Source: Paenibacillus tianjinensis (GTDB lineage Bacteria > Bacillota > Bacilli > Paenibacillales > Paenibacillaceae). Taken from it: a stretch of DNA of 64,000 nt. Of the stretch, positions 56,741 to 63,997 are shown piece after piece. The number at the start of each line of letters is the position of its first letter. Positions within the stretch are counted from its first letter, which is position 1. The notes beneath the pieces were generated by a model. That model was given only the letters and a program-made list of their open reading frames with translations, made no database searches and was not told the DNA's origin. Where the stretch lies: contig NZ_CP070969.1 of the NCBI RefSeq assembly GCF_017086365.1, forward strand, positions 5,353,501-5,417,500. Reading direction: 5' to 3'. Both the position numbers and the translations under genes were made by a program.

Positions 56741-57301
56741 TCAGCCTTTTACAACGGCGTTCTTCTCTTTATACTGCTCCAGGGTTATAACTTCACCAAA
56801 AATCCCGATATCACGCAGTCCGGACAAATGCATCTCCTCATCCTTGGATGCGCAGCAGTCGCTGATGCAGACTACCTTATACGTGTGGTACATCGCATCG
56901 GATGCCGTAGACCGGACACAGACATTGGTCCACACACCGGTGACCGCAACCGTATCGATCCCTTCTTCGCGGAGGAACAGGTCCATATCCGTATAGCTGA
57001 ACGCGCTGTGGCGTCTCTTTTGCACCACGTAATCGCCTTTTGACTCATCGGGCCTAAGCTTGTCGATGAAATCCGAACCCCAGCTGCCTTTGATCGCATG
57101 GACCGGCCGGACCCGGAAGTCGGCATCGTTCTTCCGGTGCGCTTCCTGTACGAAGATAACCTGAATCTCATTCTCATGGCTGAATTCAATCAACTCCTGC
57201 AGCGCCGGCACGATTCCCGCACCGTTTGGACAGGTCAGCGCCCCATCCGGATGAATAAAGTCATTCAACATATCTATAATTACTACAGCCTGTTTGCCCA
57301 T
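56741..57301 (-). CDS. Isochorismatase-family cysteine hydrolase
   Basis: The 186-residue amidohydrolase has the family catalytic set: Asp10 in VVIIDMLNDF, a Lys in the DYVVQKRRHSAF region, and the nucleophile Cys in TGVWTNVCVRSTA. Relatives include nicotinamidase, N-carbamoylsarcosine hydrolase, biuret hydrolase and ureidoacrylate hydrolase RutB. Placement about 290 bp downstream of the allantoinase-type gene on the same strand suggests it hydrolyses the ureido (carbamoyl) product of ring opening. ATG 57301 has AGGGAAG upstream and is preferred to GTG 57310. Confidence 0.87.
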   Translation of the reverse strand: MGKQAVVIIDMLNDFIHPDGALTCPNGAGIVPALQELIEFSHENEIQVIFVQEAHRKNDADFRVRPVHAIKGSWGSDFIDKLRPDESKGDYVVQKRRHSAFSYTDMDLFLREEGIDTVAVTGVWTNVCVRSTASDAMYHTYKVVCISDCCASKDEEMHLSGLRDIGIFGEVITLEQYKEKNAVVKG

Positions 57302-57460
57302 GCCTTTCACTTCCCTCTCGGTATGTTGTTATATATAAGTGAACTTTAGATTTACCAGACCGGCTCAGAACGCGGGCTGCGGGGAATGTTTGGACTTCCG
57401 GCCGCTGTTAGGTTTGAATTTCCTGAATTTGACCGCTATTTGCGGTAGAAAATCAATCCT

Positions 57461-57514
57461 TGCCTATGCTTTCGAAGTGAGCTTTCCTGCGGAAAGCTTT
57501 TAGGCGGACGCTAA
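57461..57514 (+). repeat. Dispersed leader repeat, copy D (no gene attached)
   Basis: Reads GCCTATGCTTTCGAAGTG, then AGCTTTCC-TGC-GGAAAGCT, then TTTAGGCGG. Compared with copy A (AGTTTTGC-TCC-GCAAAACT) both arms differ but still pair, i.e. compensatory changes. TTTAGGCGG replaces TTTAGGAGG and no coding sequence follows on the plus strand. Confidence 0.7.
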
Positions 57515-57590
57515 CGCTCCTACAGTTCCAAACTTCCCCTCCGTCGCTCCTTACCTTTTTTCTCAAATTTCAAGTTCAATCTATATATTT

Positions 57591-59006
57591 TTAATATTTC
57601 AGCAGGCGCGGAAGCTCGCTGATCGTCTGGCGTTTTACATATTCGCCGTAGCCTGGTTTGCCGACCACACCCAACGCATCATCGTACACTAGAGTGCCGC
57701 GGACAATGGTTTTATCAACCTTGCCTTTAAGCTTCATACCGTGGAACGGAGTGTACTTCGGTTTGCAATGCATCTGGTCTTTGTCGATCGTCCATTCCTT
57801 CTCCAGGTCCACAATCGTGAAGTCGGCATCGGTACCAATCTCCAGCGCGCCTTTCTTCGGATACAGCCCGTAATGGATAGCCGGATTGGTGCACAGCAGC
57901 TCTACCAGCCGGGAGAGGCTCAGTCTGCCTTTGTTATAGCCTTCGCTGATCATAATCGGCACTAGCGTTTCTACACCCGGGATCCCCGGAAAAGAAGTCC
58001 AGACATCCATACCCGGCGCATCCTTCTCTGTTGCAATTTCATAGGGCGCATGGTCGGTAGCCATGAAGTCAATTGTTCCGTCTGCCAGCCCCTGCCAAAG
58101 TGCTTCATTATCTTTTGCAGTACGCAGCGGCGGCGCAATCTTGGCGAACGTACCGAACTCGGTCATCGCATCTACCGCATTCAGCGTCAGGTAATGCGGA
58201 CAGGATTCTGCGGTCACCTTGGTTCCTTTCAGCTTTGCTTCACGGATTAGCTCGTTGCCTGCCCCCGTGCTCATATGCACGATATGCAGCCGGGCACCCG
58301 TCTCTTCGGCGAAGCTAATCCCGAGCTGGATAGCTGCCTTTTCTGCGAGCGCCATACGCGCCTCTGCCCAGGCTGGATAATCAAGGCGGCCCTCACTTTT
58401 CAGCTTACTCGTAAAGTAATCGCAGATAGCATAGTTTTCAGCGTGAATTCCAATTGGCAGCCCCGTAGGGGATACGGCGGCAAACGCCTCCAGCATTTCC
58501 GGATCGGTTACCCGCGGATAAGATGGCACAGATGGAGTCATGTACACTTTAAAGGCCACTACGCCGTTAGCCACCTGCTCACTGATAATCTCCGGCAGCA
58601 CGTTGTTGCGTACATCTTCGCCGGTAATGCCGCCCCACATCGCGTAATCGACAATCCCTTTGCCTTCTAATGCATTCAGCTTGTTGAACAGATTATCGGC
58701 AGAACGGACCGACGGCACGCTGCAGCATGGCATGTCGACAATCATCGTTACCCCGCCGGCTGCGGCGCTGCCTGTTCCGGTTACGAAATCCTCGCGGTGT
58801 GTAAACCCCGGATCATTAAAATGGGTATGCGAATCAATTACGCCCGGCAGCACCAGCTTGCCCTCAGCATCAATGATCTCATCGACTTCAGCCTCAATAT
58901 CCTTCGCGAACCCGACAATCACACCTTTGTTAACCAGAATGTCAGTCAGCACCTGTCTGTCGCCTTGCGGAATGTTGGCATTTTTAATGATCAGTTCATA
59001 ACTCAT
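57591..59006 (-). CDS. Allantoinase/dihydropyrimidinase-type cyclic amidohydrolase
   Basis: The 471-residue enzyme has all the metal ligands of the allantoinase/hydantoinase/dihydroorotase group: HxH in VIDSHTHFNDPGF (His60, His62), carboxylated Lys153 in VAFKVYM, His188 in GIHAEN, His244 in HIVHMS and Asp318 in FMATDHAPY. FNDPG with HREDF and the length favour allantoinase. It hydrolyses a cyclic ureide ring. ATG 59006 has GAGGTG 7 nt upstream. Its leader carries a purine-type aptamer and terminator (59053-59214), so it is switched on by a purine-like ligand. It lies 10 kb from the BMC operon and shares its hydrolase theme. Confidence 0.9.
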   Translation of the reverse strand: MSYELIIKNANIPQGDRQVLTDILVNKGVIVGFAKDIEAEVDEIIDAEGKLVLPGVIDSHTHFNDPGFTHREDFVTGTGSAAAGGVTMIVDMPCCSVPSVRSADNLFNKLNALEGKGIVDYAMWGGITGEDVRNNVLPEIISEQVANGVVAFKVYMTPSVPSYPRVTDPEMLEAFAAVSPTGLPIGIHAENYAICDYFTSKLKSEGRLDYPAWAEARMALAEKAAIQLGISFAEETGARLHIVHMSTGAGNELIREAKLKGTKVTAESCPHYLTLNAVDAMTEFGTFAKIAPPLRTAKDNEALWQGLADGTIDFMATDHAPYEIATEKDAPGMDVWTSFPGIPGVETLVPIMISEGYNKGRLSLSRLVELLCTNPAIHYGLYPKKGALEIGTDADFTIVDLEKEWTIDKDQMHCKPKYTPFHGMKLKGKVDKTIVRGTLVYDDALGVVGKPGYGEYVKRQTISELPRLLKY

Positions 59007-59052
59007 GAATACACACCTCTTCTTTAGGTTTTGGGGTTAGTTGGCGCACAAC

Positions 59053-59214
59053 AAAAAAGCCCCGGCTCACAAAAGGTACAAGCAGAACGTATTCCTCACC
59101 CGGTATATACCGCGCGAAGAACAACAATTCTTAGCCTATACCTCTTGTAGCCTGGGGCAATTTACGGTCGCCTGGTCGAAACGCTCAAACCGGATTATTG
59201 AGCTTATACAAGAG
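59053..59214 (-). promoter_or_regulatory. Variant purine riboswitch with terminator expression platform
   Basis: Aptamer on the minus strand, 59214-59142: P1 CUCUUGUA/UACAAGAG (perfect 8 bp), P2 GCUCAA/UUGAGC with loop UAAUCCGGU, J2/3 GUUUCGACCA, P3 GGCGA/UUGCC with loop CCGUAAA, J3/1 CCAGGC. This is the purine-riboswitch three-way junction; loop 2 GG can pair with loop 3 CC. Two pocket regions differ from the guanine/adenine consensus: CUACC is CGACC, and the J3/1 segment normally reading GACU is longer and changed. The aptamer's 3' side (59158-59140) pairs with 59077-59059 before U6 at 59058-59053, so ligand binding should block termination (ON switch). Confidence 0.82.
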
Positions 59215-59654
59215 CATATTCTGTTAATCCATCCTACAAGGAAGTTTTTCAATTCATTGTTACGTTTAGTAACATGGATAATTCAAAATCCTTCCTCAAT
59301 TACCTATATCATACCATTGGCAACTCTTTCGTCAAGATAACAAACCCGTTTGTCATTGAATCGGCAAAATATATGTTATGTTTATTAACACAATAAAGAA
59401 CTGGATGATACCCCATAACCACGATTCCATTCCTGTTTGCCCGTTATTCTTCCTATTACCTCTCCCTGCAAAGCTCACACAATCCCAGACACAGCAAAGG
59501 ATTTCATCCCCCCGCTCTTTCGCTGCTATTAATCCGTTCATAAATCCGGACTGATCCGTTACATTTAACTGCAGGAATTTCAGCAAACCCTTTTTATGGA
59601 TATCAACGACATTCCTCACAGCTGAAATTACGAGCGACACTTTCATGCCAGAAT
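59215..59654. other. Region upstream of the riboswitch, no firm gene
   Basis: This AT-rich stretch must hold the promoter for the riboswitch-controlled gene on the minus strand. A 97-codon minus-strand frame (59646-59353) follows the MerR gene but has no clear ribosome binding site and resembles no family I know, so it is not called. Confidence 0.4.
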
Positions 59655-63238: not shown

Positions 63239-63317
63239 TACCGGCGAGAGGACTCGAACCTCCACGGTTTCCCACTCGATTTTGAGTCGAGCGCGTCTGC
63301 CATTCCGCCACGCCGGC
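63239..63317 (-). tRNA. tRNA-Leu (anticodon CAA)
   Basis: Acceptor GCCGGCG/CGCCGGU, anticodon stem CUCGA/UCGAG around CUCAAAA (anticodon CAA), variable region of 11 nt, T arm with GUUCGAGUC. CCA is not encoded. It is the last tRNA of the cluster. Confidence 0.93.
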
Positions 63318-63352
63318 GTATTCATGATTCTCAATAATAAGTTCCAAAATAA

Positions 63353-63426
63353 TGGAGGCGCCACCCAGACTCGAACTGGGGATAAAGCTTTTGCAGAGCT
63401 TTGCCTTACCACTTGGCTATGGCGCC
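63353..63426 (-). tRNA. tRNA-Cys (anticodon GCA)
   Basis: Acceptor GGCGCCA/UGGCGCC, anticodon arm AAGCU-CUGCAAA-AGCUU, encoded CCA at 63355-63353. Confidence 0.96.
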
Positions 63427-63433
63427 ATAAAAA

Positions 63434-63508
63434 TGGAGCGGACGACGGGAATCGAACCCGCGACCCTCGCCTTGGCAAGGCGATGCTCTACCGCTGAGCC
63501 ACGTCCGC
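63434..63508 (-). tRNA. tRNA-Gly (anticodon GCC)
   Basis: Acceptor GCGGACG/CGUCCGC, anticodon arm UCGCC-UUGCCAA-GGCGA, encoded CCA at 63436-63434. Confidence 0.96.
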
Positions 63509-63513
63509 ATAAA

Positions 63514-63588
63514 TGGCTGGGGATATAGGAATCGAACCTATGAATGACGGAGTCAAAGTCCGTTGCCTTACCGCTTGGCTAATCCCCA
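63514..63588 (-). tRNA. tRNA-Gln (anticodon UUG)
   Basis: Acceptor UGGGGAU/AUCCCCA, anticodon arm ACGGA-CUUUGAC-UCCGU, encoded CCA at 63516-63514. Confidence 0.96.
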
Positions 63589-63608
63589 ATATTAATTTCA
63601 GAAAAAAA

Positions 63609-63685
63609 TGGGGCGACTGATGGGTCTCGAACCCACGAATGCCGGAACCACAATCCGGTGCGTTAACCCCTTCGCCACAGTCGCC
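63609..63685 (-). tRNA. tRNA-His (anticodon GUG), copy 1
   Basis: G-1 plus GCGACUG/CAGUCGC acceptor and C73, anticodon arm CCGGA-UUGUGGU-UCCGG, encoded CCA. It differs from copy 2 essentially only in the acceptor stem. Confidence 0.96.
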
Positions 63686-63732
63686 ATATTAAGCTGTTTC
63701 TAAACATTTCGCCAACCAGTCTTTTAAAGAAA

Positions 63733-63809
63733 TGGGGCGGCCGATGGGTCTCGAACCCACGAATGCCGGAACCACAATCCGGTGCGTTAACCCCTTCGCC
63801 ACGGCCGCC
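63733..63809 (-). tRNA. tRNA-His (anticodon GUG), copy 2
   Basis: G-1 plus GCGGCCG/CGGCCGC acceptor and C73, same anticodon arm and body as copy 1, encoded CCA at 63735-63733. The acceptor stem carries paired changes that keep base pairing. Confidence 0.96.
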
Positions 63810-63832
63810 ATATTAAGCTTTAAAGTTTTCAT

Positions 63833-63906
63833 TGGCAGGGGCAGCAGGAATTGAACCCACACCAACGGTTTTGGAGACCGTTGTTCTACCTTTAAACTAT
63901 GCCCCT
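63833..63906 (-). tRNA. tRNA-Trp (anticodon CCA)
   Basis: Acceptor AGGGGCA/UGCCCCU, anticodon arm ACGGU-CUCCAAA-ACCGU, encoded CCA at 63835-63833. Confidence 0.96.
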
Positions 63907-63911
63907 AAAGA

Positions 63912-63997
63912 TGGTGGAGGCTGATGGATTCGAACCACCGAACACGTACGTGAGCAGATTTACAGTCTGATGCGTTTGGCCACTTCGCTAAGCCTCC
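63912..63997 (-). tRNA. tRNA-Tyr (anticodon GUA)
   Basis: Acceptor GGAGGCU/AGCCUCC, anticodon loop CUGUAAA, long variable arm typical of Tyr, encoded CCA at 63914-63912. The gene is complete; the cluster probably continues beyond the right edge. Confidence 0.95.

Follow-up and report, generated by a model that had tools for sequence, protein, structure and literature searches.

An allantoinase leader of Paenibacillus that very probably carries a xanthine-II riboswitch, below a conserved pair of putative GlnR-type boxes

INTRODUCTION

Which ligand is recognized by a purine-type riboswitch whose pocket is changed at position 51, and does such an RNA ahead of an allantoinase gene represent a new class? 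These questions are raised by a leader within the 64-kb stretch of Paenibacillus DNA analyzed here, which we call the window. A sequence-only reading of this locus had described a three-stem purine aptamer with an altered pocket, had implied that it was new, and had proposed a search with the Rfam purine model and a collection of homologues with their genes as checks.

With high confidence, we assign the element to the xanthine-II riboswitches, which are guanine-type scaffolds with the U51G change, and read it as an ON switch that controls allantoinase at the level of transcription. The riboswitch was a good observation, but its class is already published and it is not new. What is worth keeping as an addition is a conserved pair of putative GlnR-type boxes above it. 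We infer that the window copy binds its ligand and switches, and that GlnR binds the boxes.

RESULTS

A purine aptamer with an altered pocket precedes an allantoinase gene

A scan of the 64-kb window matched the Rfam purine family (RF00167) at 59231-59128 on the minus strand with 63.3 bits (E 1.1e-8), well above the gathering score of 37, so that the purine-model search proposed as a check came out in favor of the aptamer. The predicted fold agrees with this match in the three stems, the perfect 8-bp P1 and the CCGUAAA loop that had been described. The aptamer is composed as follows.

59142..59214, minus strand: aptamer core, assigned below to xanthine-II (RF00167, 63.3 bits; fold; one mismatch in 73 nt against the allB leader L036 of Paenibacillus sp. 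DMB5)
59214-59207 with 59149-59142, minus strand: P1, eight perfect pairs
59203-59197 with 59189-59183, minus strand: P2, six pairs in the fold
59172-59168 with 59160-59156, minus strand: P3, five pairs in the fold
59177, minus strand: G, corresponding to U51 of the guanine riboswitch (U51G), the hallmark of the class (RF00167 alignment; PMC9295807)
59150..59155, minus strand: J3-1, CCAGGC, 4 nt longer than the AC of the guanine-I-type aptamer L001 in the same genome

The loops read CCGUAAA in L3 and GG at the L2 end. J2-3 is GUUUCGACCA, as against GUUUCUAC in L001 with the stems as read here, and the pocket strand within the aptamer is CGACC; the altered pocket claimed earlier, with its change at the U51 position, is borne out by the G at 59177. 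Two details had to be redrawn: J3-1 is indeed lengthened, but the final U of the CCAGGCU given for it is a P1 base, so that the joining strand is CCAGGC, and the extra bulge placed in P3 corresponds to an A/CCA internal loop, which arises when CC-GG is counted as the outer end of that stem. The 168-nt leader has a minimum free energy of -75.7 kcal/mol, compared with -46.4 +/- 3.9 kcal/mol for 200 shuffles.

The allantoinase-type gene that had been read downstream was recovered above the model cut-off, together with a likely ribosome-binding site and a second gene on the same strand.

59014..59023, minus strand: likely ribosome-binding site, AGAAGAGGUG, proposed from the sequence
57591..59006, minus strand: allantoinase (AllB/PucH type), 471 aa (TIGR03178, AllB, 378.7 bits against a cut-off of 357.85; Amidohydro_1)
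56741..57310, minus strand: isochorismatase-family hydrolase, 189 aa, the next same-strand gene after the allantoinase (PF00857)

No NCBIfam model exceeded its cut-off for the isochorismatase-family hydrolase. The gap that follows the allantoinase gene (57440-57590) contains inverted-repeat-like sequence which, judged by eye, might be an intergenic repeat element, and a cluster of eight tRNA genes lies at 63239-63997 on the minus strand.

Agreement with the xanthine-II class

Xanthine-II riboswitches were described by Hamal Dhakal et al. 2022 (PMC9295807), and a crystal structure, 9IWF, is cited in PMC12776560. According to the former paper, they are characterized by U51G and by insertions in both J2-3 (two nucleotides) and J3-1, they accompany dioxygenase, allantoinase or xanthine dehydrogenase genes, Paenibacillus is among the hosts of the variant riboswitches, and in some examples the terminator overlaps the aptamer, with ON logic (PMC9295807). 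The window element resembles this description throughout: it has the three-way junction on a kissing-loop-type three-stem scaffold (RF00167), G at 59177, both joining insertions, a Paenibacillus host, an allantoinase partner gene and a terminator that overlaps the aptamer in structure and would act in the ON direction. The 2'-dG-III class, in contrast, goes by a downstream purine nucleoside hydrolase gene, and the gene here is an allantoinase.

One member of the class, the 92 allB RNA from Paenibacillus sp. DMB5, is reported to bind xanthine with a KD of ~36.5 uM and, at 100 uM, to be unresponsive to guanine and similar purines (PMC9295807). We take L036 as the source of this RNA because the paper names the DMB5 allB and L036 is the only allantoinase leader among three DMB5 loci. 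The aptamers of L036 and the window differ at 1 of 73 nt, a P2 base (A-U here, U-U in DMB5), their joining regions are the same, and the L036 allantoinase has 96% protein identity to the window enzyme. From this near identity, the window copy would be expected to bind xanthine selectively. The sequence-only reading had suggested a changed ligand with xanthine among the candidates, which agrees with the class and with the single-base difference from the DMB5 allB aptamer; its other candidates, urate and purines with an opened ring or an N-substituent, are less probable, the tested RNA being reported as specific for xanthine (PMC9295807). It had also stated beforehand that an exact match to a described class would refute its proposal, and xanthine-II is such a match, so that the implied novelty falls away. 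The window adds one more genome to a published variant class, with one of the published gene associations.

Base 51 and gene type across relatives

Nine Rfam purine aptamers were found in the genome of the window. Two have the xanthine-II form, namely the window copy and L007, which precedes a Rieske oxygenase gene; L008, ahead of a PRT gene, has the guanine-II form; the remaining six are L001-L005 and L009. Relatives were collected by one degenerate-pattern scan of named genomes, with L3, J3-1, part of J2-3 and three P1 bases fixed and base 51 free, a pattern that leaves variation in L3 and J3-1 unsampled; it returned 56 loci, three of them from DMB5. Except for two XdhA genes, gene assignments come from tblastn comparison with the window allantoinase and with reference proteins of the same genome; Rieske, Pribosyltran and Xan_ur_permease are among the families of the latter.

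By pattern match and gene assignment, base 51 tracks the type of gene across these 56 loci. G51 is present at 25, all with the longer J2-3 (the 7-nt form): 12 precede allantoinase, 10 Rieske oxygenase and 1 XdhA (Desulfosporosinus, L027), and 2 have too little downstream sequence (L013 and L017). The guanine-II form (U51 with the shorter J2-3) accounts for 19 loci, with PRT genes at 16 (the call for L030 being a 35-residue match only), Rieske and XdhA genes at 1 each, and 1 that is too short (L043). Another 11 loci are other U51 aptamers, 5 preceding relatives of the L004 amidohydrolase (Domibacillus) and 6 preceding relatives of the L005 Xan_ur_permease (four in Listeria, two in P. pasadenensis). 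The sole C51 locus, L018, lacks aptamer flanks; it fits the pattern by chance and was kept out of the structure and box counts.

Both single cases of the guanine-II form are of interest in their own right: in P. sinensis (L020:4260-5521), the U51 aptamer precedes a Rieske oxygenase, the usual partner of G51, and in a Christensenellaceae bin (L037:2966-5455), it precedes XdhA, with a guanine-deaminase-like gene further along on the same strand.

The scaffold would be that of the window element in an ordinary riboswitch of guanine-I or guanine-II type in which the substitution had no effect, guanine-II would even have the same CCAGGCUAC J3-1, and the guanine-II form does occur in this very genome before a PRT gene. 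However, guanine-II riboswitches retain U51, carry a one-nucleotide J2-3 insertion and stand mostly before PRT genes (PMC9295807), whereas the window element has G51, a two-nucleotide insertion that makes its J2-3 one nucleotide longer, and a catabolic gene. Guanine-I riboswitches (RF00167 consensus) share the architecture, P1 to P3 and the kissing loops, but have a pocket of U22, U51 and C74 with short J2-3 and J3-1, unlike the G51 and 6-nt J3-1 found here; in Paenibacillus they are predicted to follow OFF logic (PMC9295807). In our loci, PRT genes follow 0 of 23 gene-assigned G51 aptamers as compared with 16 of 18 gene-assigned guanine-II-form aptamers, and the G51 form is reported to reject guanine (PMC9295807). 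With both base 51 and the gene wrong for it, we rejected an ordinary guanine switch, which we regard as barely conceivable.

A ligand peculiar to the window copy, such as urate, allantoin or 8-oxoguanine, might be suspected from the fact that the controlled enzyme acts on allantoin. Allantoin lies downstream of xanthine in the purine-degradation pathway. Against this idea, the joining regions match those of the DMB5 allB leader, with the sole change in P2, and the same G51 signature (J2-3 GUYUCGACCA, J3-1 CCAGGC) is also found before Rieske and XdhA genes. We consider a peculiar ligand very unlikely, and a new ligand class was rejected on the identity of the joining regions.

The xanthine-II form itself could be compared in 27 G51 aptamers, namely the 25 scan loci, the window and L007. 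P2 pairs 1 to 5 are standard in 27/27; pair 3 is U-A in 18, C-G in 8 and U-G in 1, at pair 5 there are 26 aptamers with A-U and 1 with G-C, and pairs 6 and 7 are weaker (22/27 and 16/27). In this alignment, P2 pairing is kept through two-sided changes, few of them independent events since the sequences are related. The L2 end is GG in all 27, and L3 is CCGUAAA throughout, L3 being part of the search pattern. A chance resemblance to the purine aptamer was rejected on the Rfam score and the P2 covariation. The full window core recurs unchanged in P. auburnensis (L038) and in an uncultured Paenibacillus (L056), and in P. ihuae (L017) the core runs off the retrieved stretch.

A predicted terminator made from the aptamer's 3' strand

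Downstream of the junction, the leader can form a long hairpin that competes for part of the aptamer.

59134..59158, minus strand: terminator 5' arm in the folds, overlapping J3-1 and the 3' strands of P3 and P1
59053..59083, minus strand: terminator 3' arm in the folds, then U6 (59058-59053)

The fold reproduces the terminator that had been proposed, pairing 59158-59140 with 59077-59059 before the six U residues; it has 18 pairs with one single-base bulge per side. In a constrained fold, forcing P1 costs ~16 kcal/mol, and the lower terminator stem beside the U-tract is lost. Because the folding program favors the terminator over the aptamer by this amount, switching must be cotranscriptional, and because the aptamer is transcribed before the terminator arm, a ligand-stabilized P1 would block the terminator. 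In the absence of ligand, the 3' half of the aptamer, from P3 through P1, would pair with the downstream arm to form the long terminator, and transcription would halt at U6. Once xanthine is bound, the shared strand would be held in P1 and the three-way junction, the lower terminator stem would be blocked, and allantoinase would be produced. The predicted ON direction, put forward earlier as ligand turning on a catabolic hydrolase, is in line with the overlap seen in the fold and with the published xanthine-II ON architecture (PMC9295807).

The same arrangement was seen in 13 folded allB leaders (the window and 12 relatives), in all of which the 5' arm of the long hairpin is the aptamer's 3' strand, from the 3' side of P3 through P1. 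In 7 of the 13, including the window, the hairpin is followed by at least six U residues in a row; in the other 6, DMB5 among them, an A interrupts the tail. A consensus terminator scan of the window region, with a loop limit of 8 nt, found no terminator, and a match to MIR6297 at 59151-59065 (26.9 bits, gathering 114) is merely the terminator hairpin.

Putative GlnR-type boxes at the allantoinase promoter

Upstream of the aptamer, the region contains a candidate promoter and two exact copies of TGTNA-N7-TNACA, the GlnR/TnrA consensus (PMC3412718).

59374..59390, minus strand: GlnR/TnrA-type box I, upstream of the promoter, exact
59308..59335, minus strand: promoter TTGACG-16-TATGAT (2 promoter-like sites in the region against 1.2 expected by chance)
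59258..59274, minus strand: GlnR/TnrA-type box II, between the inferred start site and the aptamer, exact

TATGAT and TTGAC are invariant in ten aligned allB leaders, TTGACG being changed to TTGACT once. Exact sites number 3 in the 64 kb against 0.52 expected, a count reached in 1 of 100 shuffles, and two of them lie on either side of the allB promoter, at positions that are conserved in relatives. This arrangement is reminiscent of the nif promoter of P. polymyxa WLY78, where the promoter lies between two GlnR sites separated by 118 bp: an activating site I, 58 bp upstream of the -35 element, and a repressing site II, 24 bp beyond the start (PMC6191146). In the window, 116 nt separate the starts of the two boxes, with box I 38 nt upstream of the -35 element and box II ~27 nt downstream of the inferred start; unlike nif, a riboswitch follows, and GlnR binding is putative. 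The two boxes bracketing the promoter would add nitrogen control above the RNA layer, and initiation at allB is probably governed by nitrogen supply through them.

Conservation of the box pair

The survey covered 220 nt upstream of each aptamer and included L007 and L008 from the same genome, the window itself being left out. Exact boxes are present in 11/12 allB, 10/11 Rieske and 10/17 PRT leaders (0.06, 0.06 and 0.13 expected), and boxes with up to one mismatch in 12/12, 11/11 and 17/17 (1.66, 1.78 and 3.15 expected). In the remaining groups, exact boxes occur in 2 of 3 other G51 leaders (none at L027), 2 of 3 other U51 leaders (none at L037) and 1 of 11 leaders of other U51 scaffolds. Two separate sites, each with at most one mismatch, were found in 24 of 26 G51 leaders (12/12 allB, 10/11 Rieske, 2/3 other) and in 17/17 PRT leaders. 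As a control, 21 other purine aptamers from four genomes gave an exact box in 2 (L004 and L074) and a box with up to one mismatch in 7.

Spacing was counted for pairs with at most one mismatch in total. It is 115-117 nt in 13 of 14 rows of the allB group, 62 nt in 7 of 13 rows of the Rieske group (61, 83 and 116 once each) and 74 nt in 8 of 18 rows of the PRT group (62, 63 and 157 once each); further spacings, mostly involving weak extra sites, are 22, 35, 36, 112, 121 and 151 once each and 47 and 152 twice each. The main spacings of 62, 74, 83, 116 and 157 lie, as judged by eye, near multiples of 10.5, one turn of DNA. Since the sequences are related and single GlnR-type sites are hardly overrepresented in the whole genome (99 versus 86 with a reversed-pattern control), weight rests on the pairing, spacing and position of the boxes.

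These patterns lead us to think it reasonably likely, on sequence grounds, that xanthine-II and guanine-II leaders of Paenibacillus carry, as a rule, two GlnR boxes whole DNA turns apart (nif-like in the allB group), forming a double gate in which GlnR would report nitrogen at initiation and the RNA would report purine at termination, for purine catabolism and for guanine-II PRT genes, and that base 51 may be swapped between the classes before the same enzyme type (Rieske in P. sinensis, XdhA in the Christensenellaceae bin). At the G51 leaders, this suggests a gate that would open on nitrogen scarcity and xanthine together. GlnR has been associated with pucH in some Bacillaceae (PMC3412718), and for P. 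polymyxa a prediction places pucR among the targets of GlnR (PMC9948412); the available part of the latter paper makes no mention of riboswitch, xanthine or allantoin. In PMC12452182, a riboswitch paper, GlnR is named only in the reference list, and in the open-access literature, by titles and the beginnings of abstracts, we found no report that connects xanthine-II or guanine-II riboswitches to GlnR sites. Should the GlnR layer prove genuine, these leaders would offer a worked case of a nitrogen regulator and a purine riboswitch combined in one leader, and it might explain, speculatively, why a weak sensor (36.5 uM) suffices for a gene that would be open only under nitrogen scarcity.

Other purine aptamers of the genome

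Three further aptamers of the same genome, L003, L004 and L005 (near 1501-1600), have GGCUAC in place of the guanine-I GACUAC, and the amidohydrolase after L004 passes the 5'-deoxyadenosine deaminase model; these three might belong to the 8-oxoguanine variant class. L009:1501-1612, a purine aptamer with a weak score of 37.6 bits, has an enlarged P2 arm and lies ahead of an EamA-type transporter gene.
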